64,000 nucleotides of DNA from Posidonia oceanica (taxonomy: Eukaryota > Streptophyta > Magnoliopsida > Alismatales > Posidoniaceae). The stretch is from assembly GCA_037176725.1 (NCBI GenBank), contig JAZBRS010000039.1:29796001-29860000 (forward strand), read 5' to 3'. The notes beneath the pieces were generated by a model. It made no database searches. It saw nothing but the letters and a program-made list of their open reading frames with translations, and was not told where the DNA came from. The translations under genes and the position numbers were made by a program. How positions within the stretch are numbered: position 1 is the first letter of the stretch; each line of letters opens with the position of its first letter. Shown in pieces: positions 3,971 to 61,977 of the stretch.

Positions 3971-3999
3971 CCCCTGGCATCGTTACTCGATACCAGGGG
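3971..3999 (+). promoter_or_regulatory. Terminator-like hairpin, element 4 copy 2
   Basis: The stem is the same as in the copy at 3,816 with loop TTACT, followed by CATCC and four T residues. It lies 155 bp after the first copy. Confidence 0.6.
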
Positions 4000-30170: not shown

Positions 30171-30324
30171 ACAGTCGAAGCGTCCCTGGCATCAAAATGC
30201 AAGGTGGATGAATGAATGGAGGAGTGGATGCGAGGTGATAGATTGACGGACCCATCGCCGAGCAGTTAGGGCTGCCAACCCGATGAGAAAAGGGGGACGA
30301 TACCATAGGGCAGCAAAAAAGATG

Positions 30325-30351
30325 CCCCTGGTATCAGGGTGATACCAGGGG
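30325..30351 (-). promoter_or_regulatory. Terminator-like hairpin, element 1 copy 2
   Basis: There is a perfect 12-bp stem CCCCTGGTATCA/TGATACCAGGGG with a 3-nt loop. In sense direction it is followed by CATC and six T residues. A competing arm GATACCATAGGGCA lies at 30,300. Confidence 0.65.
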
Positions 30352-31510
30352 ACAGCCGAAGTGCCCCTGGCACCAAAATGCGAGGATGGATAGATGAATG
30401 GATGATAGGTTGATGAACCTATCGCCGAGTAGTTAGGGGTGCCAGCCCGAATGCAAAGAATGAGGAATGCAAAAGGATACAGAGAAAACAGGAAACCCCC
30501 TGTGGTGGGTGTGCAATGGTCTCAGCACAGGCATGCATCGTGGCATCACGAGGTGACAAACGAGGGACATGCCAGTCATCAAGGACCTACCCAATGTGGT
30601 GGGCGGCAAAACTTTGAAAAGGGCAGAGCCTCTGAGCGAGGTCAGGCAAAAAGTGCTGATCCTTGACTCCGGTTTTCGAAAACAGGGAGAGAAGAAGGTA
30701 AAGATATATTACAACATGCATGTTTTGGTGGCTTTGGACTTAAAGCAGCTATGAAGAGGGTGCTTCTGTACTTTCTAACTCAGGAGACTCGATCCACAAG
30801 CAATGCCATGCCGAGTTGTGGTCAGTGGCTTTCATTCACACTCTTTGCTCGGGATGAGGCCTTGGCTTTGCAGAGTATAGCCTTTGGCTGCAGGTAGGTA
30901 GCAGAAGCGTTGGACGTAGCTTCACAGCCTCCGTCTTAATTCCTCGGGGACCGACTACCGCTTTTGACACTCACAGAATGATATTTCTTTTCCCCTCTTG
31001 AGTGACTGGAGTTGCATCTAGCCTGGAGGTAAAGTTGTCTGCACAGGGGATTGGAGCATGCTGCTGCGCTCGGAGGGTGGGGCCAGGTCCTCCAGATTAA
31101 GTGTCCCGTGCATTTGCCAGTGTGGCGCTTTGAAGTTGATAACTGAGGGGGCTTCGATACTCGTCCGAGTCACTCCTCTCTTGAGCGCCTTCTTTCTTCA
31201 ACTTCTTTCTTCATTTTTCTTTTATACTCAGCATGCATATCATGTTATCATATTCTTTTGCTCACATGATCTCTATTCTTTTGGACATGCATGACTTCGC
31301 CCTCTTGGGGTAGCAATCCCTGATGAGATGTTAAGAGTTCAGCTGATCGGCGTACACCTTCAGCCTCTGCAATGTGTACAGGCAGCCTCTGGCTATGCTC
31401 TGCTCTACTTCGGTCCTCTCCACGTCTGGTGGACTCTCTTGTTAAGGTGGATCTCGCTTTTGGGACTTCTGAAACTCAGCGGGATGCTCTATTCTACTCT
31501 CAGTCTCATT

Positions 31511-37547: not shown

Positions 37548-37740
37548 CAGAGATGATATGCACGTGCAGGAAGTGGTAGATATGTGTGGGATGATAAGTT
37601 GACGGACCTATCGCTGAGCAGTTAGGGCTGCCAGCCTGGTGATGAGTTGACGAACCCATCGCTGGATAGTTAGGGGTACCAGCCCAAGGGTGATAGGTTA
37701 ATGGACCTATCGCCAAGAAGTTAGGGCTGCCAGCCCTAAG
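37548..37740 (-). other. Hairpin region of Tat element 3
   Basis: It contains the same paired mini-hairpins as element 1: for example GCAG-ttaggg-CTGC at 37,618 and GATAGG-ttaatgga-CCTATC near 37,693. It lies directly downstream of the gag remnant, so pol was already missing from element 3 or was deleted. Confidence 0.6.
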
Positions 37741-37938
37741 CTAATGGAAAAAGAAATGCATGTTTTTAGGTCTTTCGTGATTTTATAATTTTTATGTTTT
37801 TCCATTTGGCGAGAAAACGCAAACCAAAATGGAAATAAAGAAACGACGATGTAGAAATCAAAAGAGGGGTAATAGGAACTTACTTGTCAGCAACCTTGAG
37901 AGGGAGGTGCTGGGTCCGCTCCTACGCTGCTGATGCTG

Positions 37939-39918
37939 TCAGCGGGGTCTACTTTCGGCAGTGCGGGGAGCACTGGGGCTGCTGGAGCTGCTAATGGCAG
38001 TGCGGGGAGCACTTGAGCTGCCAAGGTTGGAGGAGATACAGACCTGAATGGTGCTGCGATCAGGTTTGTTGTCGATGTTGCCGTTGCGTCTTCGAGCGTC
38101 CCCTAGGCGAGCTAAGAAAGGGCAAGAAGAGGAGATTGCGTCGATGGGATCAGAAGGATCCACCGGGGCGAAGCTGGACTCAGAGAAGACTGGAGTGAGG
38201 GAGAAGACTCCCGAGGTTCCAACATCTTTGAAGCCTACAGGCTTGGAAGAGGAAGGGCCGACTACACTTAAGTTGTGCAAGTGCTAGTGCAAGTGTAAGT
38301 GCAGGTGTTGGTGTAGGTGATGCCTCCTGCACGGCAACGTTGAAAATCTTTCGATTGATCAAGCCCTGGACGGCATCCCGTAGAGTGAGGCAGTCATCCG
38401 TCGTGTGCCTGGTGGCCCGATGGAAGCTGCAGAATTGATCCGTGTTGTGCCACTATGGAGGGGGCTTCGGTGGCGGACGGACAGTCGGGAGTCTCAGGAG
38501 TGACTCGACCTAGGGAAAGATAACACTCAGTGGTTCGGCCAGAGGGGTGTAATCACACTCGGTACGACAAGGTCGTCTTCGTCCCAGTTGGAGTCCTTGC
38601 CGAGCTGGTGCGACGTGATACACTGGCTTAACGGTGGCAGTGTGTGCAAGACTATGTGCGTAATCTAGTGGAAAAGAGTCTGGCTGACTCATTGCATAGG
38701 CAGGCTCTGCGGGAGGTTCAACGTATGAGACAACGTGCTGTTCAGAGTAGTCGGGCACGGAGTCTCTGTTGCTGGTGCCACTGCGGCGATTATTACTGGA
38801 GTTGTTGTTGATCTGCTCGGCCAATGCAGCAAGTGCGAGGAAATTTCCACTTCGCATTGAGCTTTCCACGCGGGCGCTAGATCTAATCAACGATGCAAGC
38901 TTAGTGATTGGTTGGAATGATAGCAGGGCTCTAGTCATTGGCATCACCCCCTTGACGATCATGTCGTTAGATTCCTCGATGGAGGCTCTATCTCTGATCT
39001 AGATGGCTATGGAACGCCAACGATCGACATACTCCCCGAATGGCTCATGAGGCCCTTGCCGAATGGCGACAAGATCCTCTCGCTAGGGGATCAAGTCAAG
39101 GTTGAAAGAATACTGCCCAAGGAAAGCCTAGGAAAGGCCGTTCCAAGTCTGGATAGCGGCCATGTCAAGGGAAGTGAACCACTTGAGTGTGGGGCCGGTC
39201 AGACTCTTCTGGAATAGACGGATTAGGAGCCTGTCGTCAGCCTAAAGCTGAGGAAGGTCTCCGCAGTATGCCCTCAGATGCGAGATAGGGCAGCCTCTAC
39301 CATTGTACTTTTTGAACCTCGGGAGATGGAATATCGCTGGGAGTGTCGCCTCTGGAAAGAGACAGAGGTCCCGGAATTGGTAGGGTTGGTGGTCCATGCC
39401 TTGCACTTGACGAAGTGCTCTTTCTAGATTTCCCAACCTGGCGAGGACGGGATCTAAAGTTGCTGCTGGCAATGGTTGTGCAGCAGAGGCAGGGGCAGCG
39501 TATACTGTATGGGTCACACGAAAGCGCTCCTCCGAATCCACCATCACACCACCTGGTGTCAAGGCGTGAGGGCCAGCATACCTGTGCGAGTGTGAGAAGT
39601 GTTTTGAGATGCATGCAGGGGTTTGAACCTGATGCAAAGGGGATGAATAGATAGTATGTTGTGCAGTGTAAGGTACAATGTGGGGAGCAGCAGCTGTGGC
39701 ATTGGCACGGTGCCGGGCAACGGGCTCTGAGGGTGCTGTGCTCCTACCAATCCAGGAGACTGGCCACCAAATGATGGAGTAGCATGCAGTGAATAGTATT
39801 GTGCAGACACAGGAGGCAGATAAGGCCCCCGCATCGCTAAAGCTGTGAGGAGCTGGGGCAATGACGAGGGCGGAAGTGTAGTGTAGGGAACCTGCAGAGC
39901 TATAGTGGACTGCACCGG
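37939..39918 (-). pseudogene. gag pseudogene of Tat element 3, cut by element 2
   Basis: The protein aligns with the element 2 gag from about its middle: YQFRDLCLFPEA, KKYNGRGCPISHL, ARVESSMRSGNF, and a C-x2-H-x4-H-x4-C knuckle (CSFHRATRHTTDDC) near 38,400. The 5' part of gag lies beyond element 2, outside the window. One frame carries TAG at 39,242, 39,128, 39,083, 38,999, 38,510 and 38,453. Where element 2 is aligned, three of these are CAG (Gln) and two are AAG. Frameshifts lie near 39,700 and 38,280. After the knuckle a low-complexity part continues in another frame to 37,939, and no protease or RT follows. It is not functional. Confidence 0.8.
39914..39918. other. Expected target site duplication of element 2, left copy
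   Basis: ACCGG lies directly outside the LTR end TGTAGCGATCCC. The right copy should follow the 5' LTR outside the window, near 67,931 if both LTRs have the same length. Confidence 0.45.
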
Positions 39919-42900
39919 TGTAGCGATCCCGATCGGAACCAGGCTCGCTATTTAGCGGCGATTGAGATCCGAGGAAGAGGCTCAACTCGAAAAAACACTT
40001 AAAATCGAGGAGAAAAAGGAAAAGATAAGACAAATCAGAGTCGCCACCACGTCTATTAACGGAAGACGAGGAAAACCGGGGTAATGCGTGAATTAACGCG
40101 CAAAACCGAGCAATAAATGCAAAGCAAAGCAATGCAAAGGGAAACAAATGCAAACAAATGCAAATGAGATGACTCTAGCCTAGGATAAGGGCGGTACGGT
40201 CATTGCGGGCCAAAAGACAGGGTAAGGACTCCTGTTACGTACGGGGAAGGTATTAGGCACCCCCGACACGCCCGAAAATCGGTCTTTCTAGGCTTACGCT
40301 CGCATACGCAGAAAGATGCAGGATTGAATGCCTATGTGCCTATGAATGTCTAAATGAATGCTCAAGGAGTGCTCTAAGTGGGAAGAAACAATGCAAGGAA
40401 GTAAACGTGCTCTCTAAGTGCTCAGCTGCGCTGTCTGTGTTCCGAACCAGGCGTAACCTAGCTCGTGAGAACTCCAGGCAGTAAGCATCACAGCCCTATA
40501 TGCAAATGCAAGCGAGAAAACAAAACAGTGTGAAAACCATGCAATGGGATCGACATGCAAGAGAAAACGGCACGAAACACGCAAAACGAGGCGGGAAGCG
40601 ATCAACGCACGCAAAACGATGCAAAAGAGCGAAACCTTCACGCAAAACGAGCGGAAAACAAGGCAGCGCGCAAAACGAGACAAGAGAGCAGGAAGGTACG
40701 CAAGACAGGACGAGAAAACAGAATGATACGCAAAACGGGGCGAAAGAATAAAACCAGCACGCAAAACGAACGAGAAGGCAAGACAGTGCGCAAAACGAGA
40801 CAAGAAAACAGATGGGCACGCAAAACGGAGCGAAAACGAGGGCGGGCACGCGAAACGGTGCCAAAACAGCGAAGCAAAAACCTCGAAAAAGCCATGCAAA
40901 TGCAAGAATGCAGAAAGAGATTAAAAGGGGTCAAAGGGGAGGCAAGACAACGTGTGTATAAGAACAAACGCTGTTTAGGACCACTCAGGGTAGGTGTGAA
41001 GACCTACTGAGGGGAGAAGGGGCAAATGGAGGGATTACCACCTCTTTGCGACTGTTTCCCACTAAACCGTTCCACGGTGTGTCTCGCATGCTGCCCAAAG
41101 CTCGCGATGCGATCGGATCGTGGAAAAAGGGGAAGAAAGTCACATAAAGTGGCAAATCCAGGGAGAACGCAACACGAAACACACAGGGAAACGCGAAACG
41201 AGGATTTGAATAGACAAGCAGAAAGGGGAAGTCCTATTCTACATGCTCAAAGAGACAGAAAGCGAAAACAAGGAAAACTGTGCAAATGCCATGCAAATGA
41301 ATGCAATGCAGGGGTTCAGGAGGACATACCAGGAAATCCGGGAGCCTGATCTGAAATCTGTCTGGTCTATGCTGAAGAGCGCTTCGCTGCGGTCGCTTGG
41401 GCAGCTCACTTGAGAAGATCCAACGGCCGGATTGGAAGATATCGCAGCTCCAAGGCAGAAGGGCCAGAACAGGGGAGAAGAACAGATCTAGGTGTTCAGG
41501 AGGTCCTAGGGATGTGCAAAAGGGTCCTCCCAAGTGAAAGGGAGCTAGAAGTGCTTAGTGTGTGCAAAGGGGATGCTGAAATGCAAGACTAAATGGATGT
41601 AGAATGCATGCAAAAGCAAGAAAAAGTAAAGAAAAGAAGCTGGGAAAAAACTAGGATTTCAGAAAGTATTTTGAAAAAGAAGAGGGGCTAAAAAATGCAA
41701 ATTTCCCAGAAAACAGGGTTCCACAGGAGAGGATTTTGAAAACAGGGGAAGACAAGGGTCTATTTGGCAAAAAACTAGGCTTAGAAAGGTGTTTTGAAAA
41801 GAAGGTATGCTTTGAAAGAGATTTTGAAACCAAAAGGGGTCAGAGTGCAATTTTGAAAAAATCTAGGGTCTAAGATGCAAATTTTCCAGAAAACAAGGTC
41901 CTGGGGAGTCTGGGGGTACTGGTGGAAGGTCTGTATGAAATTTGGTAGGCATAGGGGCTAAAATGCAACCTAGGGGCAAAATGGTCTTTTCACGTGATTT
42001 TTAAAGCATGCAGGGACCTAAGTGTGGTTTTGAAATCATGCAGGGGTTGAAAATGCAATTTAGTATGGAAAATATGCTCTGAAAATTAAATGCCAGGACC
42101 ACAGTGCAATTTCTGGAAAATATGGGGTTAAAAATGCAATGCAGTAAGTTAAAATGCATGCAGCACAGTTACTGTCCATTTAAAATGGACCTAACTGCAA
42201 ATATGATAAAGCAGAGTGGCAAATATGCAATGCATCAACCAAAAATAAAAATCAGAACCTAAGTTTCTACAGTGCATGTACTTAAATGCAAAAACAGAAA
42301 AATGCAGGGACTTGGAATGCAATGCAGTATGCAAAAATAAAAAATAATCCTAAGTTCTAACAGTGCATGGGACTTAAATGCAAAAATAAAAACATGCAAG
42401 GGGCCAGGATGCAATGCAGTATGGTAAAATATAAGTAAATTAATGAACTGACTTGGTGCAGGACTTAAGTGCAAAAAAATAAAACAGGTGGACTAAACTA
42501 CAAAATATCATAACAGCACAGCACAGTAAATGGATCTACTTGCAAATATTGAAAACTATAAACAGATTATGCAATTTAGCATAGCATTTAATTAAAAACC
42601 AAGCAGAATAAATGAAATAAGGACTAAAGTGCAAAAATTGAAAAACTTAAGTTAAACATGCAATATTTACACCTAAAACTATACTGAAGAAAAATAAATG
42701 AACAGTGTTGATCGTCGACGGCGACGAGCACTGTAGCACAAAGCTTCCAGAGCTCGTGCCGTCGACAGGGGAGGCTGAGGATGCGCGGGAAGGCGGAGAG
42801 CGACGTCGGCGATCGTCCGGAGCTCCGGGGGTCGACTGGAGCTCGCTCTGCTGGTCGGAGTGTCCGGAGGAAAAGCAGCCGGCGCCGGAGAAGGAGGACT

Positions 42901-46383: not shown

Positions 46384-47465
46384 GAAAAAAAACGATAAGG
46401 TGACGGGCTTATCGTCCGGATAGTTTACGGTCCTATCAACCGGGAGTGACAGTTTACGGTCCTGTCAACCGGAGCAGTTGTGAGTGATAGTTACTGGATA
46501 TCAGCCGTATAACATGGTTGTGGGTGATAGTTTAGGAGTATCAGCCTAACGACAGTTTACGGTCCTGTCAACCGGTGGATAGTTTACAGACCTATCAACT
46601 GGAGGATAGTTTACAGACCTATCAACTGGAACCCACAAACCATGAGTGATAGTTACTGGATATCAGCCGTATAACGCAATGCCGGATAGTTTACAGTCTA
46701 TCATCTGGAACGACAGTTTACGGTCCTGTCAACCGGCGGATAGTTTACAGTCCTATCAACTGGTGGATAGTTTACAGTCCTATCAACTGGAAACAGCATT
46801 GCGAGGGACAGTTACTGGATGTCAGCCATATAACATCATTGCGCGTGGTAGTTTACAGTCCTACCAACTGGTGGATAGTTTACAGACCTATCAACTGGAG
46901 CGACAGTTTACGGTCCTGTCAACCGGCGGATAGTTTACAGACCTATCAACTGGAAACGCGCAATGATGAGGGATAGTTACTGGATATCAGCCGTATAATG
47001 CAATTGCGGGTGATAGTTTAGGAGTATCAGCCTAACGACAGTTTACGGTCCTGTCAACCGGTGGATAGTTTACAGACCTATCAACTGGAGGATAGTTTAC
47101 AGTCCTATCAACTGGAAACCGCAATTGCAAGGGACAGTTACTGGATGTCAGCCGTATAACGTAATTGCACGCGGTAGTTTACAGTCCTACCAACTGGAGC
47201 GACAGTTTACGGTCCTGTCAACCGGTGGATAGTTTACAGACCTATCAACTGGAAAAGTGCAATTACGAGGGACAGTTACTGGATGTCAGCCGTATAACAC
47301 AACTGCGGGCCAACCATGGATCGGCCAGAAGATAGTTTAGGTTATCAGCCTGAGAGTGATTGATTGTTGATAGTTTCGGATATCAGCCTAGCACGAGTTT
47401 GATAGATTGATAGTTTCGGATATCAGCCTAGCACGAGTGATTGATTGATTGATAAGAGGGGGCAA
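46384..47465 (-). other. Array of five nested-hairpin modules
   Basis: Five modules in a row each have an outer inverted repeat of their own. The arm pairs start at 46,514/46,632, 46,676/46,796 (GCAATGC/GCATTGC), 46,834/46,957 (CATCATTGCGCG/CGCGCAATGATG), 46,999/47,119 (TGCAATTGCGG/CCGCAATTGCA) and 47,161/47,257 (GTAATTGCAC/GTGCAATTAC). Inside each arm pair lie three to four mini-hairpins with 5-bp stems: GATAG/CTATC, GACAG/CTGTC or GGTAG/CTACC, with loop TTTACRGWC. Linkers of about 31 bp carry another hairpin, GATA-gttactgga-TATC or GACA-gttactgga-TGTC. A lead hairpin CGATAAG/CTTATCG lies at 46,392. No coding frame explains the pattern. Confidence 0.85.
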
Positions 47466-47507
47466 GATCATGATGAGAATGATAAGATATCGGACTTATC
47501 GGCCGGC

Positions 47508-48090
47508 AAAGAGGGGATGAGGTAATGATGAGAAGTTGATCTAAAGAGGGGGTGAGATCATGATGAGAAATTAATCTAAAGAGGGGATGAGGTCATGATG
47601 AGAAGTTAAGCTAAAGAGGGGACGAGATCATGATGAGAAATTAAGCTAAAGAGGGGATGAGATAATGATGAGAAATTAAGCTAAAGAGGGGATGAGATAA
47701 TGATGAGAAATTAAGCTAAATAGGGGATGAGATAATGATGAGAGGTTAAGCTAAAGAGGGGATGAGATCATGATGAGAAATTAAGCTAAAGAGGGGATGA
47801 GATCATGATGAGAAATTAAGCTAAAGAGGGGGATGAGATCATGATGAGAAATTAAGCTAAAGAGGGAGATGAGATCATGATGAGAAATTAAGCTAAAGAG
47901 GGGGATGAGATCATGATGAGAAATTAAGCTAAAGAGGGGATGAGATAATGATGAGAGGTTAAGCTAAAGAGGGGATGAGATCATGATGAGAAATTAAGCT
48001 AAAGAGGGGATGAGATCATGATGAGAAATTAAGCTAAAGAGGGAGATGAGATCATGATGAGGAATTAAGCTAAAGAGGGGATGAGGGAAT
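47508..48090. repeat. 35-bp tandem array, about 17 copies
   Basis: The unit is GAGGGGATGAGATCATGATG plus AGAAATTAAGCTAAA, sometimes with one extra base in the G-run. Variants (ATAATGATGAGAGG at copies 7 and 13) recur six units apart, pointing to duplication of blocks. It is flanked on both sides by GATAAG-atatcgga-CTTATC-type hairpins (47,482; 48,090; 48,150). Confidence 0.9.
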
Positions 48091-48284
48091 GATGAGAATG
48101 ATAAGATATCGGACGTATCGGCCGGCAAAGAAGGGGTAAGGGAATGATGAGAATGATAAGATATCGGACTTATCGGCCGGCAAAGAAGGGGTAAGGGAAT
48201 GATGAGAAGAAACCATCCCTATGACGCCAGGAACGTCATAGGGGAAAGGGGGAGAGAATGATACCGTGGGGCGATCAAAAGATG

Positions 48285-48311
48285 CCCCTGGTGTCGGGAT
48301 GACACCAGGGG
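48285..48311 (-). promoter_or_regulatory. Terminator-like hairpin, element 2 copy 1
   Basis: CCCCTGGTGTC/GACACCAGGGG is a perfect 11-bp stem. Compared with element 1 a T-A pair has become G-C on both sides, a compensated change. In sense direction it is followed by CATC and four T residues. Confidence 0.65.
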
Positions 48312-48612
48312 TTGGCCAGCGCGTCCATGGCATCGAAAGCAGAGAGTGATGACAAGAGTGTCGTGCTTGTCAGACGAGTAGTTTGGGGTACCAGCCCGCA
48401 AGGGATTCAGCTGAGGGCGATCAGCTGGGGACTCAGCTGGGGTGACCAGCCGAGAAGAGTGTTAGGTTGACGGACCTTTCGCCGAGCAGTTTGGGGTGCC
48501 AGCCCGCGGGGATGATGATCCAGCTGGGGCGACCAACTGGGGACTCAACTGGGGATGACCAACCGAGAAGAGGACTCAGCTGGGGATGATACCACCGGGC
48601 GACCAAAAGATG

Positions 48613-48639
48613 CCCCTAGTATCAGGATGATACCAGGGG
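48613..48639 (-). promoter_or_regulatory. Terminator-like hairpin, element 2 copy 2
   Basis: CCCCTAGTATCA/TGATACCAGGGG has one change, which is a G-T wobble on the sense (minus) strand. It is followed by CATC and four T residues. Confidence 0.6.
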
Positions 48640-49137
48640 ATGGTCGGTACGCCCCTGGCATCAGGATGCAAGGACAGATAGGCGAGTGGATGGATGATAG
48701 GTTGACGGACCTTTCGCCGGGCAGTTTGGGGTGCCAGCCCACGAGGGACTCAGCTGAGGATGAACAGCTGAGGAGGATAACAGGTTGACGGACCTTTCGC
48801 CGGGCAGTTTGGGGTGCCAGCCCGTAGAGGATGGTGGTCCAGCTGGGGGCGACCAACTGGGGATGCCGGACAGCGGAGCTGAGTGTCGCGGGCCTGCAGA
48901 TGCTCTGGGCTCCGGATTGGGTGCTGAGGACTTCGCCGCGCTGAGATGTCTGCAAGTCTGATTAGAGGGCCCAAGATAATGATGATGATGATATGCAATG
49001 CAGCAAAGAGTCTTGATGTGCAAGCAAAAAGCAGAAACAGTTTTTATTGATATGATCTTGATAAGTACAATGCCTGAGGCAGGCCAGAAAAGCACAGCAC
49101 AAATTGAAAGAAGACCACATGATGGTCGCACAAGGGC

Positions 49138-51873: not shown

Positions 51874-53622
51874 CTACTGATAGTACTTCTTCAGATAGCA
51901 GAGGTTGACGGGCTCAGACTGCTCGACCTGGTCCATATCTTCAAGGGTTACAGCACCTCCCGAAAAGATCTGCTTGACTACAAAGGGGCCACGCCAATTG
52001 GGTCGGAATTTCCCTCGACCGTCCGGCAAGTGAATGGCGCGCAAGACAAGGTCCCCTGGCTGGAAGCTTCTGGGCTGGACCTTCTTCAAGAATGCTCTGG
52101 CCATCCGCTTCTGATAGCAGTGAGCGTTGTGCATGGCATGCAATCTGCGCTCATCAATCAAGTTCAGTTGGATGCAGCGGTCTTCGACCCATTCTGCTTC
52201 TTCCAACTCAGCTTCCCGCAGGATCCGCAGAGAGGGGATCTCTACTTCAACAGGTAACACCGCTTCCATGCCGTACACCAGAGAGTACGGGGTGGCTCCT
52301 GTAGAGGTCCGGATTGATGTCCTGTACGCCCAGAGCGCGTACGGGAGCTTGTCGTGCCAATCCTTGTGGATTTCTGCCATTTTCTTCAGAATCTTGACAA
52401 TGTTCTTGTTTGCAGACTCCACTGCTCCGTTCATCTGAGGCCGATAAGGCGAGGATCGATGGTGCTTGATTCTGAGACTTTGCAGGTATTCTTCGATCCT
52501 TTTGGCAATGAAGTTTGAGCCGTTATCAGAGATGACAGAGTATGGGACCCCATATCGGGCAACAATATTGTTTCTGATAAATTTTTCTGTTGCCGCGGCA
52601 GTGACTGTCTTGTAAGAGGCTGCTTCCACCCACTTGGTAAAGTAATCGATCGCTACCAGAATGTAACGATGACCATTTGAAGCAGCAGGGTGGATGGCGC
52701 CAATGACATCGATCCCCCAGGTGGAGAAAGGCCATGGCGAGGACATGTTGTGCAGCTGATGTGGAGGGGCCTTGATGAAGTTACCATGAATCTGACAGTT
52801 GTGGCATCTACGCACGAACCGGCAGCAGTCGGCTTCCATGGTCTGCCAAAAATAACCTTGCAGCATGATCTTCTTGGCTAGGAGAACGCCGTTCATGTGC
52901 GGGCCACAGGTCCCCGCATGCACTTGAAGCATCAGCGTGTCAGCCTCTGATTTGTTCAGGCAGCGCAGTAGCATCTGATTGTATGACCTTCTGTATAGCT
53001 GCCCGGCCCCTAACACATACTTTGACGCCAGACGCGCCAAAGTTCTCTTGTCTGCTGCCGTGGTATCAGGAGGAAAGTTACCAGACTCTAGGAAAGATTT
53101 TATGTCCTGATACCAGGGCTGCCCCTGTGCAGGATCCGCTTCTTCTATGCTCATGCAGTATGCAGGCTGTTCAATGCGAGTGACTGATACATCCACAGTG
53201 CTGTCTTCTGATATAGTGAGCCAGGATGCCAGAGTTGCTAGTGCGTCTGCATACGCGTTCTTTGCTCTGTTCAGGTATGTGAAGCGGATGCTCTTGAATT
53301 CTTCCATCAACCTCAGCAGGTGTTCGTGATACGGCACAAGCTTGGGATCTTTTGTCTTCCATTCGCCGTTCACTTGAGAAATTACCAGCATGGCATCGCC
53401 GTGCACATGCAGCTTCTGCGCCTCATGCTCGAGGGCGACTTTCAACCCCAGGATGCATGCTTCATACTCTGCTTCGTTGTTTGTGCAGGTGAAAGTCAGC
53501 TTCCTCGCGAAAGGAGTCATCTGTCCTTGGGGCGTGGCCAGCACTGCGCCTACGCCTCGGCCCTTCTTGTTGACTGCACCATCAAAGTAGAGCTGCCATT
53601 CCTCTGCTTCTTCAGGATTTTT
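51874..53622 (-). CDS. Second RNase H and integrase of element 2
   Basis: RNase H: the full Asp-Glu-Asp-Asp set is present in LYFDGAVN, TNNEAEYEA, HGDAMLV and NAYADALA. This extra RNase H is a mark of the Tat lineage. Integrase: the zinc-binding HAGTCGPH and CHNC; then the DDE triad in WGIDVIGAI, VISDNGSNF and NGAVESANK, with 35 residues before the Glu in the usual way; and a C-terminal GPF module (NWRGPFVV). It ends with KKYYQ at TAG 51,874, the natural end. No chromodomain is seen. Confidence 0.9.
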   Translation of the reverse strand, partial: KNPEEAEEWQLYFDGAVNKKGRGVGAVLATPQGQMTPFARKLTFTCTNNEAEYEACILGLKVALEHEAQKLHVHGDAMLVISQVNGEWKTKDPKLVPYHEHLLRLMEEFKSIRFTYLNRAKNAYADALATLASWLTISEDSTVDVSVTRIEQPAYCMSIEEADPAQGQPWYQDIKSFLESGNFPPDTTAADKRTLARLASKYVLGAGQLYRRSYNQMLLRCLNKSEADTLMLQVHAGTCGPHMNGVLLAKKIMLQGYFWQTMEADCCRFVRRCHNCQIHGNFIKAPPHQLHNMSSPWPFSTWGIDVIGAIHPAASNGHRYILVAIDYFTKWVEAASYKTVTAAATEKFIRNNIVARYGVPYSVISDNGSNFIAKRIEEYLQSLRIKHHRSSPYRPQMNGAVESANKNIVKILKKMAEIHKDWHDKLPYALWAYRTSIRTSTGATPYSLVYGMEAVLPVEVEIPSLRILREAELEEAEWVEDRCIQLNLIDERRLHAMHNAHCYQKRMARAFLKKVQPRSFQPGDLVLRAIHLPDGRGKFRPNWRGPFVVKQIFSGGAVTLEDMDQVEQSEPVNLCYLKKYYQ

Positions 53623-55086
53623 CTACTCAGAGTCCTCCATTGCAAAGAGAATGTCTTCATCAGGGAACTGCGTCTGGAGGGGCTGGTATTCAGGCAGAGG
53701 GAGGTCAGCAAGATGGTCTGCCATTGCTTGACCCTTCATGGATTTCTGTGTGACGAAGGTGATGTCGTACTGAGACAATAACACCTGCCACTTAGCACAT
53801 CTGCCCACCATGGCCGGCTTCTGGAAGAGGAATTTGATGGGATCGTGCCGGCATAAGAGCTGCACTGGGTATGCCATCATGTAGTGTCTCAGCTTCTGTG
53901 CAGCCCAGACAAGTGACAAGCAAGTCTTCTCTAGTGTTGTGTACTTGGCTTCACATTCATTAAATTTCTTGCTCAGGTAGTAGATGGCACGCTCCTTCCT
54001 ACCAGATTCGTCATGTTGGCCCAAGACGGCGCCCATGGAATGCTGCGTGGTAGAAAGGTAGAGAAGTAAAGGTCTCCCCGGCGTAGGCGGGACCAGGACA
54101 GGAGGCTTGATCAACAGCTGCTTGATCTTGGCAAATGCAGCCTGACACTCCTCGCTCCAGTGAATCTGCGCATTCTTCTTTAAGAGCTTGAATATGGGTT
54201 CGCAGATGGGCGTAAGCTGTGCAATGAAGCGACTGATAAATTGTAAACGCCCAAGCAGACTTCTGACTTCTTTTTCAGTTCTAAGGGGTGGCATGTCCAC
54301 GATGGCTTGTGCTTTCAATGGGTCCACCTCAATCCCCCTTTGGCTAACAATGTAGCCGAGCAATTTGCCAGAAGACACCCCGAATACGCACTTCTTGGGA
54401 TTCAGGCGCAGCTTGTACTTCCGTAGACGGTCAAAGAGCTTTCTGAGACAGGCAAGATGATCCTCGGGCTCTTTGGTTTTGGCGATCATATCGTCTACAT
54501 AGACCTCCACTTCTTGGTGCATGAGGTCGTGGAATAATGCAATCATGGCCCTCTGATAGGTTGCACCAGCATTTTTTAGGCCGAACGGCATGACTTGGTA
54601 GCAGAAGACTCCCCAAGGGGTGATGAATGAGGTCTTTTCCATGTCCTCTTCTGCCATTTTGATCTGATTGTATCCAGAAAAGCCGTCCATGAAGGAGAGC
54701 ATTTTGTGGCCCGCTGTATTGTCGACTAGGACGTCAATGTGGGGCAATGGAAAGTCGTCCTTGGGACTTGCCTTGTTCAGGTCCCTATAGTCGATGCAGA
54801 TCCGGATTCGGCCATCTTTCTTGGGCACAGGTACAATGTTTGCCAGCCATTCAGGATAAAGAACGACCTTCAGAAAGTTGACTCCAAGCTGCTTCATTAT
54901 CTCTTCTTTGATCATGAGCAGCCACTGCGGTCGCCATCTTCTCAATTTCTGCTTTACTGGCTTGGCATCCGGATTTAAGGGCAGATTGTGCACCACTATC
55001 TCTATGTCAAGGCCGACCATATCTTCATAACTCCAGGCGAAGACATCCGCATATTCTTTCAGGAATGCGATGAATTCTGCTCGAAC
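53623..55086 (-). CDS. Reverse transcriptase and degenerate RNase H of element 2
   Basis: After EYADVFAWSYEDM come the RT motifs VPKKDGRIRICIDYRDLN, LSFMDGFSGYNQI, MPFGLKNAGATYQR and the catalytic YVDDMI, then LGYIVSQRGI and EKEVRSLLGRLQFISRFI. The following RNase H domain has LLLYLSTTQHSMGAVL where active enzymes carry TDAS, so its first Asp is missing. This is known for Tat elements, which have a second RNase H. It would copy the element RNA into DNA. The segment ends at TAG 53,623. Confidence 0.9.
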   Translation of the reverse strand, partial: VRAEFIAFLKEYADVFAWSYEDMVGLDIEIVVHNLPLNPDAKPVKQKLRRWRPQWLLMIKEEIMKQLGVNFLKVVLYPEWLANIVPVPKKDGRIRICIDYRDLNKASPKDDFPLPHIDVLVDNTAGHKMLSFMDGFSGYNQIKMAEEDMEKTSFITPWGVFCYQVMPFGLKNAGATYQRAMIALFHDLMHQEVEVYVDDMIAKTKEPEDHLACLRKLFDRLRKYKLRLNPKKCVFGVSSGKLLGYIVSQRGIEVDPLKAQAIVDMPPLRTEKEVRSLLGRLQFISRFIAQLTPICEPIFKLLKKNAQIHWSEECQAAFAKIKQLLIKPPVLVPPTPGRPLLLYLSTTQHSMGAVLGQHDESGRKERAIYYLSKKFNECEAKYTTLEKTCLSLVWAAQKLRHYMMAYPVQLLCRHDPIKFLFQKPAMVGRCAKWQVLLSQYDITFVTQKSMKGQAMADHLADLPLPEYQPLQTQFPDEDILFAMEDSE

Positions 55087-56682
55087 CTAGGTGGACAGCT
55101 GGGCACTGATGCAAACTTCTCTGACTTCCTCAGCTGTGCCGATGTTGACAACCTCCGTTTCTTCTTCGACATGGAGGTTGGGGCCTTCTGGGTCGTCGTC
55201 ATAGGGCCGGAACTCGGGCAAAGGTTCGTCAGTCTCATCTATGCCCGTATCGTCCTCTTCTCCATAAGCAACAAGTTCTGAGAGGATCTCTTTCTCGAAA
55301 GAAGGACTTGCAATGCTGAAAGAGTGTATGTGTTCTGCTGCTTGGCCCTGGTGACGCTTCAGGATGGTCACGCTTACTCGAGTATTCTTGTAGCCTCGGT
55401 GCGCGACCTCCGTCCTAGCAACTCCTTCTACTGTTTGCTCTGGCCTGACTGACTCTGCTGAGTGCTCTGCTGATTCTGCTGCTGATACTACTGACTGCTC
55501 TGTTGACTGTTCTGCTGACTGTTCTGCTGCCGAGGCTGCTGACTGCTCTACTGCTGAGGCATTCTGCTTTGTTACTGCCGCTGCATGTACTGCTGATGTT
55601 CCTCCCTCTGGGTCTTCTAGTGTGCTTGTGGAGGATATGCCAGACTGGCGGCTAATCTGGCCACTGCCGCTCGATGCCTTGCTTAAGTGAGGCATGGGTT
55701 GCACAAACCACCTAGACTCGCCTTCTGGTTGAAGAGTGATGAGCTCATCTGGTCTAGGGGAGTCCGGCGTTGCTGAGTCTTCCAGGACCATGATAGAAGC
55801 ATGGTCCTCTTGCAGAGAAGGATCCGTAACTACGGCTTTTCCTTTCCTTTCTGCAGCTTGATGCTCTGCCAGGTCTTCTGCTATTGACTTGATCTGTTCT
55901 TGATAGAGTAGCTCTAAGTCGGACATCCAAGAATCGACCTGGGCTTCTATCGCCACTCCTTCTTCCTCGTCTGAGGGGGAGTCGACGTAGTAGGCGCCGG
56001 GGGCCTGCGGCACTGGCCCGGCTGCAAGATGGATCGCCGCCCTTGGGGTCTGCATGATCTGGTTCATGGGCGCGTCTGATGGTGGCAACTCTGATGTAGA
56101 TGGCCCAAATAGACAAGCTAGCGGTGCTACTGATGGATAAGCTTCCAGGGTCACTGCGGAAGAGTAAACAGGGGTGCTCCTTGGAGGGCTCAAGGGCCCG
56201 GAGAGTTTAGTGCTCAGTTGGCCTTTTGTATCGGGCCGTAGCTGAGAGAGCGCAGCCTCTGACGCCATAGGGTCTTGCCACGAGAGCTGCTGCGGGTCGT
56301 CAGGAGAATGCGGAGCGGACTGGGCCAACTGCATTCCTGAAGATGATGCTGAGGGAGCGGGCTGGGCCACGCTGCCGACTGAGTTGATGGACTGCCCCTC
56401 CAGAGATGGGGGCAGTGGCACTGATGTTGCAGTGACCGCTGGTAGCATGCTTGGTTCTGCCAAGAGGAGTGTCTCTGACTCCTGCACTGCTGCTGACTTT
56501 TCTTGAGAAGCTGGTGTGGCTGGAAAAGGATGAGAACTTGCTTTTGCCACAGGGCCTGCTGAACTGCCTGCTGTTTCTGCCAGAGGGAGAGCTAAATAAA
56601 TTGACTGTGGGGCCTCTGCTCTGACCACTGTTTCTGCTGAACTGATTGGGACTGCCTCTGTTGCATCAGACTGCTCCTCATC
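55087..56682 (-). CDS. Low-complexity linker between protease and RT of element 2
   Basis: Some 530 codons rich in Ser, Ala, Glu, Gln and Pro (for example repeated AEQSAEQS) have no recognised domain until the last 40. There the phrase TEVVNIGTAEEVREV announces the region just before RT in Tat elements. It ends at TAG 55,087. Its composition suggests a disordered spacer. Confidence 0.7.
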   Translation of the reverse strand, partial: DEEQSDATEAVPISSAETVVRAEAPQSIYLALPLAETAGSSAGPVAKASSHPFPATPASQEKSAAVQESETLLLAEPSMLPAVTATSVPLPPSLEGQSINSVGSVAQPAPSASSSGMQLAQSAPHSPDDPQQLSWQDPMASEAALSQLRPDTKGQLSTKLSGPLSPPRSTPVYSSAVTLEAYPSVAPLACLFGPSTSELPPSDAPMNQIMQTPRAAIHLAAGPVPQAPGAYYVDSPSDEEEGVAIEAQVDSWMSDLELLYQEQIKSIAEDLAEHQAAERKGKAVVTDPSLQEDHASIMVLEDSATPDSPRPDELITLQPEGESRWFVQPMPHLSKASSGSGQISRQSGISSTSTLEDPEGGTSAVHAAAVTKQNASAVEQSAASAAEQSAEQSTEQSVVSAAESAEHSAESVRPEQTVEGVARTEVAHRGYKNTRVSVTILKRHQGQAAEHIHSFSIASPSFEKEILSELVAYGEEDDTGIDETDEPLPEFRPYDDDPEGPNLHVEEETEVVNIGTAEEVREVCISAQLST

Positions 56683-59073
56683 CTAGTAGTAGTCCTCAAC
56701 ACACACCCAATCCTCTGTCGGCGCTGCGGCTTGGTAGTCAGTTGATCCCAGAATTCCTGCACTGGTAAAGTTAGTGAGGTCTCTGGGAATGGCTGGTGCA
56801 CGATCCTTGAGCTGGAAGCAGTGATCTTCGTCGAGCTTTGGTTCGTAGCCGAGACCTTCTGACTTCCTTCGCTCCACTGCTATGATCAGCTCCGCGATCC
56901 CTTGGCCGTGACGCCCGAGTGGCGTACCCTTTGTGTAACCCCACCTGTGACATACATTCTCGACCGTTCGAAAGGGGTTACTGTGAACGGCCAAAGAGTT
57001 GACACGTTCAAGATCAGGAACGAAGTTAACTGGCTCGCACCGGTTAACGCGATAGAGGGCTTCAGAAGTCTCGGGGTCAAACGGGATGGATTGCGAAGAC
57101 ACGGGAGAAACTGCTTCAATCCGCTCCTTCTCAAAGTTCTCCGCCATGACGACAATGACATCATCGCCACGACGGTACTTTATCATTCGATGGAGGGTCG
57201 AAGGAAGGACCTGATGCTTGTGAAGCCAAGGGCGCCCAAGCAGAAGATTGAAGTTAGGCTTCAAGTCGACGACATAGAATTCTACGTCGAAGACGACCGG
57301 GCCGATAGCCAGAGGGATAATCAGAATCGCTAGAGCGTCATGGTGAGTGTTGTCAAACGCAGTCATTCCCTTTACGGCTGGCGTGATATCCTCGGCTTTG
57401 AATCCGAGCTTGGTTGCTGTACGCAAGGGGCAGACGTTAAGGCCTGACCCGTTATCAACCAGTGTTAGGGGAATGCGAAAGTTTTTGAACTGCACCGTGA
57501 CGAATAGGGGCTGGTTGTGATTAATCCCTGCCGGAGGCAGCTCATCACTCGTAAAAGAGATGACCTGGGGCTCCGCGATTAACCCAACCACGCTCTCCAA
57601 GGCAGAAGGCTCAATGGACTGGGACACACGAGCAGCCTGGAACACACGAAGAAAAGCCTCGCAATGTTCGGCAGAAGTGTGGATCAAATCCCAGATGGAG
57701 ATGTCGGCTTTAACCTTCTTAAGCTGGGAGGTTAGGTCTGCTCTAGGTTGGTCTCTCCTAGCAGCTGGAGGGGTGATTCTAGCAGCTTCTACAGGGGTAG
57801 TGGCAGGAAGCTGGGTTACTACAGGCTGGCTAGGGGCTTGGCTAACTACAGGCTGATCTGGGGCTGGATTTGCTAAGGGTTGGCCTGAGGGTGGGGGTAT
57901 AACAGGTCTTGGATGAGTTGGCCTAGTTGCCGGTGCTGGGGGCCTGTAAATCCTCCCCGATCGCGTTACTTCCGCGCACATTTCTGTGGCGTAGCTGTAA
58001 GGGACGCGATGGGTGTCCAGGGTCAAGTTAATGATGACTGGAGCATGTGCTGCGAGCACAGGAGGGGTTACAGGGGGACCTACAGGATACTGAGGTCTGT
58101 CTAAGGGATATGGTTGTTGGGGTGGGAAGGCTGGGGCAGGTTGAGGTCTGCCTAGAAGGTGTGGTTGAGGTCGCCCTAGAAGGTGAATGGGAGAACTAGG
58201 CTGGGCTCTGGCTAAAAGGTGTACGGGAGATTGAGCCTGAGGGAGCAGGGTGGGAGACGCGCGAGGGCGCTCCGGCCTAGCACGCGGTCGGATCAAATGG
58301 ATTCCCGACTCGGAGCCGGCAACTGCCGCCAAATAGAGACTGACTGGGAAAGGCTCAGAGAGGTCAGAGATAAGATCAGAAGGGTCTACTACAGAGGTAG
58401 CGGGCCCAGAGGGAAAGACAGAGTGGACGCCTGAGGTTCCCGCCCTTCCCGGATAAGAGTGCTCCGGTAAAGGTTGGCGGACGATGCCAGAATGCGGGGG
58501 AACAACTGGAGATGCAGATGCATGGGTGCGTGCTTGAGTGGAAGCCTCGTGCGTGTCGATCACAATCGTTCCCGATTCGATCAGGTCCTGAATTGCGTTC
58601 CGCAGGGAGAAGCAATTATCCGTCGAATGCCCGACGCTTCGATGGAAATTGCAGAAGAGGTCCGGCCTAAACCAATGCGGCAGAGGGCTTGGCGGCAGAC
58701 GAACCTCCGGGAACTTCAGGAGCGATGCCACCTTTGGCAAGATGACCGTGAGTGGTTCCACCAGTGGGGTGAAATTCCGCCTCTCAGTGGGTGGTCTTCT
58801 TTGCCTTGGGTACGGGCCTTGCTGAACCGGTGCGGCAGGATAGACCGGTCTAGCGGTGGTTGTGATGTGCGGTGTGTGCGGATTCCTAGGTGCAGGAGCG
58901 TACACCATCTGAGCTGGGGCAGGCCGTGACAGCAAGCGAACAGGCACAGCAGGAGAATCGACGAATGCAACAGCGGGTTTCGGCGAGTCCTTCCTCTTCG
59001 GGCGGTTGTTGTTGCTGCCGCTGTTGTTGTTGTTGGAGGTGCTGCTGTTGGCACTGTTGCTGCTTATCACTGC
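56683..59073 (-). CDS. gag C-terminus, aspartic protease and G-patch of element 2
   Basis: An Asn/Ser-rich start is followed by a knuckle CNFHRSVGHSTDNC (C-x2-H-x4-H-x4-C) near residue 140, then a long Pro/Gln-rich spacer. The protease lies around residues 540-650, with active-site phrase LVDNGSGLNV and the later NFNLLLGRPWLH. D-N-G-S instead of D-S/T-G is usual for Tat proteases. A G-patch-like stretch, GTPLGRHGQGI ... GLGY, follows near residue 710. The protease would cut the polyprotein. The frame ends at TAG 56,683. Confidence 0.85.
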   Translation of the reverse strand, partial: AVISSNSANSSTSNNNNSGSNNNRPKRKDSPKPAVAFVDSPAVPVRLLSRPAPAQMVYAPAPRNPHTPHITTTARPVYPAAPVQQGPYPRQRRPPTERRNFTPLVEPLTVILPKVASLLKFPEVRLPPSPLPHWFRPDLFCNFHRSVGHSTDNCFSLRNAIQDLIESGTIVIDTHEASTQARTHASASPVVPPHSGIVRQPLPEHSYPGRAGTSGVHSVFPSGPATSVVDPSDLISDLSEPFPVSLYLAAVAGSESGIHLIRPRARPERPRASPTLLPQAQSPVHLLARAQPSSPIHLLGRPQPHLLGRPQPAPAFPPQQPYPLDRPQYPVGPPVTPPVLAAHAPVIINLTLDTHRVPYSYATEMCAEVTRSGRIYRPPAPATRPTHPRPVIPPPSGQPLANPAPDQPVVSQAPSQPVVTQLPATTPVEAARITPPAARRDQPRADLTSQLKKVKADISIWDLIHTSAEHCEAFLRVFQAARVSQSIEPSALESVVGLIAEPQVISFTSDELPPAGINHNQPLFVTVQFKNFRIPLTLVDNGSGLNVCPLRTATKLGFKAEDITPAVKGMTAFDNTHHDALAILIIPLAIGPVVFDVEFYVVDLKPNFNLLLGRPWLHKHQVLPSTLHRMIKYRRGDDVIVVMAENFEKERIEAVSPVSSQSIPFDPETSEALYRVNRCEPVNFVPDLERVNSLAVHSNPFRTVENVCHRWGYTKGTPLGRHGQGIAELIIAVERRKSEGLGYEPKLDEDHCFQLKDRAPAIPRDLTNFTSAGILGSTDYQAAAPTEDWVCVEDYY

Positions 59074-60663
59074 CTACTTAGCGAACGCAGAGAGAGCTGG
59101 GAAGTTGCCACTCCGCAAAGAACTCTCCACGCGCGCTCCAGCTCTGATGAGTGCCGCAAAAGTAGTGACTGGTTGGATGCTAAGCAGAGCTCCGAGAGAC
59201 GGCTGCGCCCCTTTGATAACGATCTCGATAGATTCCTCGTCAGAGGGTCTATCTCGAACCTGAGAGGCAAGGGCGCGCCAGCGGCCGACGTACTCCCCGA
59301 ACGGCTCGCCAGAGTTCTGCTTGATGGCGATCAAGTCCGCCCTCTTTGGGACAAGATCGAGGTTGAAGGAGTATTGTTCCAGGAACGCCTGACTGAGGTC
59401 ATTCCAAGTCTTGATGGCTGACATATCGAGTGATGTGAACCACTTGAGCGCCGGCCCGGTCAAACTCTTCTGGAACAAACGGATCAGCAACCTCTCGTCA
59501 GCCTGAAGCTGAGCGAGATCACCGCAATACGCCTTCAGGTGTGCTACAGGGCAGCCCCTACCATTATACTTCTCGAAGTCCGAGATTTTGAACTTCGGAG
59601 GGAGTACCGCCTCTGGAAAGCAACAGAGGTCTCGGAATTGGTAGGTCTGGTGCTCAGTACCCTGCACTAGTCGTAGTGCCTTCTCCAAGACGTCCATCCG
59701 GTTGTTGATGGGGTCTGGAATTGCTGCTGTAGGAGAGGGATCAGCAGGGTTAGCGAGCACATACGCCGAATGGGTCGCACCTAAGTGCTCCTCCGGATCT
59801 ACCATAGCGTCACCTGGTGGAGCAACGGGATGGCCGGCGTATCCGTGCTGGGGGATAGTGTATGCAGGAGTGTATGCAGGATGCTGGACTTGAGGGAGAG
59901 GAGAAGAATAAATGCCATGCTGTGCTGGGACAGGGGTAGGATGGCGGAGCACCAGTTGCTGTGCAAGCGGGGTGCCAGACAGCGAGCCAGTGAGGTACTG
60001 GGCTCCAGCCGACCCAAAGGGTTGACCACCAGAAGAAAGTGGAGCATGCTGTGCCAAGTGTTGTGCAGGAGGCGGTAAACGAGCCCCCATCGTCGGAACC
60101 GTGAGCAGTTGCGACGATGGTCGAGGCGGAGGTGTAGAGGTCGATGCAAGGAATGCAGGAACTGGCCTCAGAGGAACCTCAGGAACGACAGAGATAGAAG
60201 GAGGACGAACTGACAGAGCCATGCCCTGCAGTCTCTGGGCAAGCTCCATCAGGTGCTGGTACTGCGCCTCGGGCGTCTCGCCAGTGGGGACGCTGAAGTG
60301 CAGTGCCGGCGGCGGCTGAGAAGCAAGAGGCACGGACACAGATGGTCCGGGAAGGAGGGGATCTACAGAAAAAGTCGCAGCAACGGTGGAAGGGATGTCG
60401 AAAGCGACGTATCCCTGGGACGGAGGGGGCAGTGGCGTCTCCGGAGCGCGAGTAACGGCCGTCAAGATAGACTCGGCGACCGGATCCGGAGGAAGGGAGG
60501 CTTGCCACTGTCCCGGGGTGTACTGAGAACCTAGAGACGTCAGAGGAGGAAACCCTGGCGTCGGAGGGGGAACAAGTGGGACAGAAAGAGCAACCGGGGG
60601 GGCCAGAACGGAAACACCCTCCGTGACAGGAGTAAAAGAAGGCTCACTAACGTACTGGGCCAT
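59074..60663 (-). CDS. gag (capsid part) of element 2
   Basis: A Pro/Ser-rich N-terminal half of about 330 residues is followed by a Retrotrans_gag domain: YQFRDLCCFPEAVLP, YNGRGCPVAHLKAYCGDL, LKWFTSLD, FLEQYSFNLDLVPKRADL, FGEYVGRWRALASQVRD, ARVESSLRSGNF. It would form the virus-like particle in the cytoplasm. It ends at TAG 59,074, where the aligned codon of element 3 is CAG. The sequence on the other side continues in frame. Confidence 0.85.
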   Translation of the reverse strand: MAQYVSEPSFTPVTEGVSVLAPPVALSVPLVPPPTPGFPPLTSLGSQYTPGQWQASLPPDPVAESILTAVTRAPETPLPPPSQGYVAFDIPSTVAATFSVDPLLPGPSVSVPLASQPPPALHFSVPTGETPEAQYQHLMELAQRLQGMALSVRPPSISVVPEVPLRPVPAFLASTSTPPPRPSSQLLTVPTMGARLPPPAQHLAQHAPLSSGGQPFGSAGAQYLTGSLSGTPLAQQLVLRHPTPVPAQHGIYSSPLPQVQHPAYTPAYTIPQHGYAGHPVAPPGDAMVDPEEHLGATHSAYVLANPADPSPTAAIPDPINNRMDVLEKALRLVQGTEHQTYQFRDLCCFPEAVLPPKFKISDFEKYNGRGCPVAHLKAYCGDLAQLQADERLLIRLFQKSLTGPALKWFTSLDMSAIKTWNDLSQAFLEQYSFNLDLVPKRADLIAIKQNSGEPFGEYVGRWRALASQVRDRPSDEESIEIVIKGAQPSLGALLSIQPVTTFAALIRAGARVESSLRSGNFPALSAFAK

Positions 60664-61977
60664 TGCTGACCTAGAGCGTGTGAGAACTGGGCTGCGACGG
60701 GTATTCAAGCGATGCTTCCTAAGAGGAGCTATCGTCGCAAGTGCGGATAGCTCGGAAGGGGAATGGTCGCGAACTAAGTCGCAAAAGGGCGTCAACGAGG
60801 GTCGGTACTCAAGCTCTGGCAAAGGGAACTCGCTTACCGATCACGCTGACACAACAGAAGGAAATTAGGGTTAGAAACTAGAGGATGAATGCAAATGAGT
60901 TAGTTAAGTGGCGTGAATGATATGCATGCTTTCTAGTATGCCCCCCTTACCTAACTAGTGTTTCCTAGCAAGGCTGTCTACTCCGGGTATCCCTGGATGT
61001 ACGGGTCACCGACTCAGGTCAGAAAAAGTAGGTCCCCTGTCTAACTCCCGGCCCAAAGCTCAGGTAATGACAGGGTGGTGCGTTAGTGGCCTCTACCCTG
61101 CCAAAGCGTGGGTGGTACCCTCTACTAACACCGACACGACCCCCGGACAAGGAGGGGACGGACCGACCAACTTATGCCACGCCCAAAGCAGTGGAATAAG
61201 AGGCCGGAACCGTCCTTCGCAGACTAGTAGGTGGACTCAGAGGAGAAGAATGCATGCCCTATATGATGCTTATGCAAAATGCTTAGAGTTTTTTTATCTT
61301 GCACATTTTATTAACCAAAAAGGGAGTGAAGGATTGTTTGTAGTCTCTAGTTGCCCCTAGAAGTTCTTTTTACTTGCATTTTTTAGTTAACCATGGGGGA
61401 AGCAGACAGGTCTCTACTATCCTAAGCATGGCATGTGCAAAAGGGAAGAAAATCAATCCAAATGGCAAGCAACCATCATACAACACAACAAAAGGCATGT
61501 TCATGGCATGTGCGAGTGTTTGTGAATATGATGGTGAAAAAAGAAGCATTCATCAAGTCAAAAGGCATGTAAGCATAGTATGTGCGTGTGTAGTGGCATA
61601 GCAAGGGTGTAAAAGAAGCATTCAACATCCAAAAAGCATGTATTTTAGCCAAACAAAGTATGTAGACATGCAATGTGCAAGAATTAAAGCAATAATAAGC
61701 AAGTAAGGCAAAACAAGATAAAAGTAAGCAGACTGTAAAAGAAATAGGAGTATAAGCAAGACAATGAGTAAATAAACAAGCAAATAAGCGAAGCCAGGTA
61801 AAAGAAAGCGCAAACCGAGGCGAAAGAGGTGCAAAACCCAAGCAAAGTAGCCACGAAGCGACTTGCTAGGAGTTTGCACAGAAAGGCGAGCAAAACAGGC
61901 AAAGAAGGCACACAAGGTAGACAAAACTACAAAACAAGCGAGCGAAAAGCCGAGAACGAAAGCCGGAGTCTAGTCTA
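60664..61977 (-). other. Leader of element 2 between PBS and gag
   Basis: It is non-coding, with many stops in all frames. Near the PBS it is rich in 'gcaagtaagcaaaac' phrases. No extra ORF before gag is present, although Ogre elements usually have one there. Confidence 0.65.

Follow-up and report, generated by a model that had tools for sequence, protein, structure and literature searches.

Tandem repeats between pol and the 3' long terminal repeat (LTR) are well known in Tat retrotransposons. In Tat/Ogre elements these 3' repeats are a recognized source of plant satellite DNA, and their function, as far as the text of these reports goes, is not known (PMC7004042, PMC11963269). According to a 2025 review, no study has directly addressed RNA export in plant LTR retrotransposons (PMC12786077). 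Here we analyze such a region in a stretch of 64,000 nucleotides (nt) of Posidonia oceanica DNA (contig JAZBRS010000039.1, positions 29,796,001 to 29,860,000; hereafter the window, within which all coordinates are given). The window contains a minus-strand Ty3/gypsy LTR retrotransposon, element A, and within it an array of five modules. We read the region as probably a selected cis-acting RNA domain in an Ogre/Tat-type genomic RNA, built from tandem compact H-type pseudoknots. What is seen in the sequence is a set of paired arms, interleaved stems in most of the small units, compensatory change in stem 2, a bias toward the sense strand and recurrence in four element copies. The parts of the array are as follows.

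46513-46644, minus strand: module M1, arms 46631-46644 and 46513-46525 (13 bp with one bulge), four units
46675-46803, minus strand: module M2, arms 46796-46803 and 46675-46682 (8 bp), four units
46834-46968, minus strand: module M3, arms 46956-46968 and 46834-46846 (13 bp), four units
46999-47129, minus strand: module M4, arms 47119-47129 and 46999-47009 (11 bp), four units
47160-47267, minus strand: module M5, arms 47257-47267 and 47160-47170 (11 bp), three units
47298-47306, minus strand: outer closing helix, 5' half, GCAGTTGTG on the sense strand
46474-46482, minus strand: outer closing helix, 3' half, CACAACTGC on the sense strand
47271-47297, 47133-47159, 46972-46998, 46807-46833, 46648-46674 and 46486-46512, minus strand: six linkers of 27 nt

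All five arm pairs proposed in the initial annotation are present and slightly longer than it had given (8-13 bp, one bulge). In a 6 × 6 matrix of arm segments the uninterrupted helices of the intended pairs measure 11, 11, 13, 8 and 8 bp; the M1 pair, 13 bp by eye across its bulge, contributes 8 uninterrupted bp. A sixth, outer helix of 9 bp (47298-47306 with 46474-46482) flanks the first and last linkers and surrounds all five modules. The 30 non-intended combinations of the matrix reach at most 6 bp, and among the 120 possible assignments of the five inner pairs the true one scores highest (sum 51; next 42), which bears out the claim that each arm pairs within its own module only. As a control for chance, two random 18-mers of the same composition reach at least 8 bp in 20 of 20,000 trials. 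The pairing has been kept while the sequence changed, also as proposed: the arms diverge more than the interiors in ten of ten module pairs. For M1 against M4 the interiors are identical in 104 of 109 columns and the arms in 7 of 15. The gap is narrow for M5 and M4, and the interior similarity values of M5 are lowered because it has one unit fewer.

Paired arms could also be the product of neutral repeat dynamics. Here the array would stem from strand transfer in reverse transcription, and the arms would be kept by template-switch (quasi-palindrome) correction or by the common ancestry of duplicated units, with no selection on RNA. The outer helix lends itself to this explanation, as it can be two halves of one ancestral module left at the ends of a tandem array; because that origin fits it too, the outer helix is weaker evidence than the five inner arm pairs. 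The occurrence of the long arms in one element, A, also favors neutral dynamics and counts against selection. None were noticed in the three other copies described below, where no dedicated search for them was made.

The evidence for a selected RNA domain extends to the interiors of the modules. The count of small units per module given by the initial annotation is correct (three in M5, four in M1-M4); their description as hairpins is not retained, since the units are better read as compact H-type pseudoknots, with interleaved stems, on the minus (sense) strand. Examples, written on the sense strand, are CGGT-t-GACAG-g-ACCG-taaa-CTGTC, CAGT-t-GGTAG-g-ACTG-taaa-CTACC, TTAGG-ct-GATA-ct-CCTAA-ac-TATC and CGG-cc-GATAAG-t-CCG-atat-CTTATC. 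The cloverleaf-like picture of nested hairpins is dropped because the units interleave rather than nest, and a tRNA-like cloverleaf was rejected on the same ground. Loop 1 (1-2 nt) spans a stem 2 of 4-7 bp and loop 3 (2-5 nt) a stem 1 of 3-5 bp, in scans that admitted only 1-2 nt for loop 1 and lengths from 2 or 3 nt for loop 3. By the groove-crossing rules for the loops of H-type pseudoknots, these lengths suit the sense strand; in an antisense fold the loop of 1-2 nt would need to span the shallow groove of the longer stem. The linkers separate the modules as annotated, with a length of 27 nt instead of 31 bp, and agree with one another at 24-27 of 27 positions. Of the hairpin ascribed to them, stem 2 (GATA/TATC or GACA/TGTC) is retained in every linker and stem 1 is weak in five of six.

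The domain is larger than the region first noted. Its position in the transcript, after pol and before the 3' LTR, is in keeping with the earlier placement of the structure in the 3' part of the element transcript, and the same units recur in three further element copies, B, C and D.

46393-48834, minus strand: putative structured RNA domain of element A, in which a 35-nt tandem array lies amid the five-module array, further pseudoknot units and hairpins
48374-48834, minus strand: upstream part of this domain, with class A and class B units and hairpins
48285-48311, minus strand: 11-bp hairpin CCCCTGG...CCAGGGG
48613-48639, minus strand: second member of this hairpin family, with one G.U pair
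29867-30459, minus strand: element copy B, with class A and class B units in tandem and two copies of the hairpin
37591-37747, minus strand: element copy C, a close relative of B, with tandem class A and class B units
2965-4086, plus strand: element copy D, with class A units, one class B unit and hairpins at 3816-3844 and 3971-3999

Copies B and C are about 92% identical in shared blocks, and both are 66.6-69.4% identical to element A in aligned blocks of more than 500 bases. Only one piece of copy D, some 200 bases long (4290-4477), aligns with A; it comes after the units, an order shared with A. Two unit classes, GGG-ct-GATA-g-CCC...TATC and CGG-c-GATAGGT-CCG-tta-ACCTATC, alternate in B and C, and both (classes A and B) are present in element A at 48374-48834. 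The 11-bp hairpin occurs twice each in A, B and D; its changes are one compensatory and one G.U in A, and one C.A mismatch per copy in D. Degenerate patterns of the units gave no match in collections of viral contigs and genome contigs, and a search of viral contigs by reverse transcriptase (RT) gave two pattern stretches, neither of them confirmed.

Further repeats were observed within these domains. In element A a 35-base tandem array of 16.8 copies (47508-48098) separates the module array from the upstream units, and no pseudoknot unit was recognized inside it. The hairpins of element A at 48217-48243 and 48404-48860 (minus strand) include one of 12 bp, CCCTATGACG...CGTCATAGGG, and several built on a CAGCTG/CAGTTG core, with G.U differences among them. 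The domain of D contains a 68-base tandem array of 8.1 copies (3090-3642), whose units hold a hairpin CTTCGT...ACGAAG.

A descriptor of the pseudoknot geometry matched 42 times on the minus strand of the domains of A, B and C (3.3 kb) and twice on the plus strand, with a mean of 0.81 and a maximum of 3 in 100 shuffles. In D it gave five matches on the plus (sense) strand and none on the minus strand, and elsewhere on the minus strand 0.33 per kb. A looser scan by stem energies returned 291 pseudoknots on the minus and 258 on the plus strand; given this high background on both strands, the tighter descriptor and anchored tests were used.

The anchors of the stem 2 tests are independent of the pairs tested. 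The domains list 58 AACT sites (those less than 24 nt from a domain start being skipped), of which 10 have no anchor and 48 are anchored. Four of four stem 2 pairs form in 44 of the 48 anchored units. The inner letters are AT/AT in 22, AC/GT in 11, GC/GC in 6, GT/AC in 4 and other in 5, a compensatory change at two (inner) positions with all four combinations present. The four exceptions are a class B unit (copy C, 37600), a unit of D at 3075 that by eye pairs in another register, and two units with a single mismatch. In the module array every one of the 19 stem-2 halves matches its own partner, a result equaled in 0 of 10,000 shuffles, compared with 142 of 342 matches to the partners of other units and 5 of 18 to that of the next unit.

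The same signal is seen in an alignment of class A units from the four elements (23 of 29 rows; two units TAGGCTGATATCCGAAACTATC and four copies of included rows were left out). In this alignment 95.7% of the stem 2 cells are paired, compared with 86.5% in shuffles (0 of 500 as high) and at most 57.1% in slid controls. Changes on both sides are found in 23 cells (8.3 in shuffles; 0 of 500). The covariation score reaches 0.414 (0.249 in shuffles, 0 of 500; at most 0.155 when slid). An alignment that mixed units of different stem length was not counted. Shuffling of the stem-2 halves of fully paired rows within classes gave results as good in 0 (class A), 432 (class B) and 320 (class C) of 10,000 trials, in a set of 68 rows (44 distinct) that holds some class A rows with a shifted stem 1 register, six class C units doubled and two chance matches.

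Stem 1 and G.U pairs were counted after dropping class A or B matches that coincide with class C units, which left 60 rows (49 distinct). A stem 1 of at least 3 bp stands alongside stem 2 in 41 of the 49 distinct rows, with 4.9 expected (0 of 2000 shuffles), under a null that is generous because the class A and B anchors fix one G, and the class A anchor also one C, of stem 1. Between classes, the stem 1 sequences differ yet remain complementary. Among 245 stem 2 cells, the departures from Watson-Crick pairing are 15 G.U, 2 A.C and 7 others (binomial p 0.002 for G.U against A.C), and these G.U pairs form only in the sense RNA.

The loop lengths and the excess of G.U over A.C argue for a sense-strand RNA rather than single-stranded DNA; of the two alternatives in the initial annotation, selected RNA or selected single-stranded DNA, we thus keep the former. 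A DNA-level feature, in which inverted repeats are bound by an element protein (for example, the product of the plant mobile domain (PMD) open reading frame (ORF)) or fold as single-stranded DNA, is accordingly very improbable. The inverted repeats do exist in the DNA too, and the PMD ORF adjoins the domain. However, half-sites for a protein should keep their letters, yet here both halves change together, and the geometry and the G.U bias are strand-specific. The same observations bear on neutral repeat dynamics, which predict neither interleaved stems whose loop lengths suit one strand, nor the same grammar in four element copies, nor a G.U to A.C ratio of 15 to 2; stems of 3-5 bp would also be short for palindrome correction. 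We consider neutral dynamics unlikely as an explanation of the region. Template switching, which the initial annotation had offered as the neutral route to perfect arms, is weakened for the arms and keeps a small share of the probability there.

Several results weigh against a selected RNA domain. Two of the five measures on the class A alignment lie within their shuffles (pairs changed on both sides, 37 of 500; further pair types, 310 of 500). Stem 1 has no significant covariation within classes, with shuffles as good in 1432 (class A), 5649 (class B) and 3485 (class C) of 10,000 trials, and eight of the 49 rows have no 3-bp stem 1, among them, as copies, five of the six linkers. One stem 2 mismatch is common to three class B units of element A. 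The independence of the descriptor counts is overstated because the descriptor was drawn up post hoc and tandem units are related, and the close identity of B and C further inflates that of the unit counts. Folding of the minus-strand RNA of the region, as the initial annotation had advised, did not favor the sense strand: over 46395-47465 (1071 nt) the plus strand gave -337.9 kcal/mol and the minus strand -310.4 kcal/mol, in nested folding that cannot represent pseudoknots. The same nested-only method, applied to seven crops (five minus, two plus), six of which cut into an arm, gave z-scores of -0.33 to -1.40 for six crops and -3.41 for the sole crop with complete arms.

The host of the domain is likely an Ogre-like Tat element, judged by its coding sequence, and is a young copy. 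Its two LTR stretches differ at 10 of 2003 bases, and the LTR is possibly longer than the matched stretch, because the second LTR is cut by the window end.

39919-41921, minus strand: 3' LTR of element A, 99.5% match to 61998-64000
61998-64000, minus strand: 5' LTR of element A, truncated at the end of the window
51877-60840, minus strand: gag-pol reading frame of element A (Pfam), with four in-frame TAG codons
49141-50475, minus strand: PMD ORF in sense orientation, 3' of pol (PF10536, E 1.4e-21)

The order in gag-pol is gag, protease, RT, RNase H (RH), second RNase H and integrase (Pfam). In the ORF 51877-53622 an RVT_3 match (residues 13-131) precedes rve (298-395), and RT and RH are in the preceding ORF. 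A second RNase H between RH and integrase is, in the text consulted, a trait of Ogre and Retand, and PMD extra ORFs occur in 57% of Ogre elements (PMC6317226). Element A has such an extra ORF, about 7 kb from its 3' LTR. A protein-level search with the RT, in which matches come without DNA context, found plant relatives, with 6184 proteins below the cut-off and identities of 55-69% among the 120 matches listed; named sources among these are Cajanus, Gossypium and Vitis, and one match labeled Salmonella is probably contamination. The four in-frame stops of the gag-pol frame (2988 codons) are all TAG, with no TGA or TAA.

Elsewhere in the window, a Gag and protease-like fragment (38318-39682, minus strand) lies just beyond the 3' LTR of element A and is 61% identical to its gag over 290 residues. 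Apart from element A, a second ORF matches the plant mobile domain (13362-14558, minus strand; PF10536, E 9.2e-09). A plant C/D-box small nucleolar RNA (snoRNA), snoR71, is found at 19360-19466 on the plus strand (43.2 bits; gathering score 40).

In the role that we propose for the RNA domain, its RNA would adopt the pseudoknot fold in cells, and the repeated fold could form a multivalent docking site that recruits several copies of one protein to the full-length RNA. The divergent arms would act as addresses that prevent near-identical modules from cross-pairing. If the domain is functional, its most likely role, on analogy with the retroviral and musD transport elements, is the export and protection of unspliced genomic RNA, although we put this at appreciably less than an even chance. 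The structured region of element A sits between pol and the 3' LTR; retroelement transport elements are usually found there, or in the RNA's 3' part. In pea and Medicago, as far as the text of the report goes, the intron between the protease and RT ORFs of Ogre RNA is removed from only part of the transcripts (PMC6317226), and unspliced RNA must therefore exit the nucleus. A frameshift signal was rejected because the array follows pol and the PMD ORF.

Close behind export, for a functional domain, stand two roles that we regard as possible, each with rather low probability. The first is recognition of the genomic RNA, in Gag binding, dimerization or packaging into virus-like particles, which as an explanation of the region as a whole is unlikely. 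The genomic RNAs of Ty1 and Ty3 have pseudoknots or potential ones (PMC11381356), and multiple identical folds would fit a multimerizing protein; the Ty1 signals named in the text consulted, however, are at the 5' end and not after pol. The second is that the domain, from its position in the 3' part of the transcript, would promote translation or stability in the manner of the upstream pseudoknot domain (UPD) of tobacco mosaic virus (TMV); this too is improbable for the region overall. In the TMV 3' untranslated region three consecutive pseudoknots bind eEF1A, and structure, not sequence, matters for replication, according to the portion of the report drawn on here (PMC4683447). Against such a role in element A, the domain lies several kb upstream of the LTR, away from the RNA end. 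Rfam holds UPD models, and no Rfam family reaches its gathering score in the domain; four weak matches, to snoRNA and long non-coding RNA models, have E values up to 5 (best 0.12). A hammerhead or other ribozyme, suggested by CTGATGAG-like strings, was rejected, there being no Rfam match.

A broader proposal, which we advance tentatively and hold at somewhat under an even chance, is that part of the hypervariable repeats that Ogre/Tat elements carry between pol and the 3' LTR constitutes a new RNA class. In it, long arrays of compact pseudoknots would keep their fold while their letters drift, and one lineage would have gained mutually non-pairing address arms and a helix closing the array. 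Were the conserved fold true, the Tat/Ogre repeats of these very large plant retrotransposons would turn into a cis-acting element whose part in RNA export, packaging or translation can be tested, and their variability would in part reflect drift within the limits of the structure. The array would also offer a natural case in which divergent closing helices keep near-identical RNA modules from mispairing.

The initial annotation knew of no described counterpart, and we found none for tandem pseudoknots in an LTR retrotransposon or Ogre in the literature searched, which mostly excludes subscription papers; six unit sequences likewise had no occurrence in that literature. Structured cis-acting RNA in retroelements is known, and it is the form and the host that are not described there. 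As far as the text of each report goes, the likenesses and differences are as follows. The musD transport element (MTE), which has a pseudoknot, and the murine leukemia virus element PTE, of about 1,400 nt, are likewise structured retroelement RNAs; they differ in belonging to animal hosts and in not being tandem arrays of one small pseudoknot, and they act in transport, which for the domain of element A is a candidate role (PMC5767303). Ty1 and Ty3 also have pseudoknots in the genomic RNA of LTR retrotransposons, but these occur singly, at the 5' end in Ty1 and, as predictions, within GAG/POL in Ty3, in contrast to a tandem array after pol (PMC11381356). The upstream pseudoknot domain of TMV resembles that of element A in that small pseudoknots follow one another in the 3' part of a plant RNA; in TMV, three pseudoknots stand beside the tRNA-like end of a virus, whereas here tens of units, with armed modules, lie far from the RNA end of a retrotransposon (PMC4683447). 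The hypervariable repeats of Tat elements (Ogre, Retand) are the nearest system, being tandem arrays of variable sequence at the same place in the same kind of element (PMC7004042, PMC11963269). The words "hairpin" and "secondary structure" occur zero times in the main texts of both reports, as does "pseudoknot" in that of PMC11963269, while in element A a two-stem fold is kept as the letters change.
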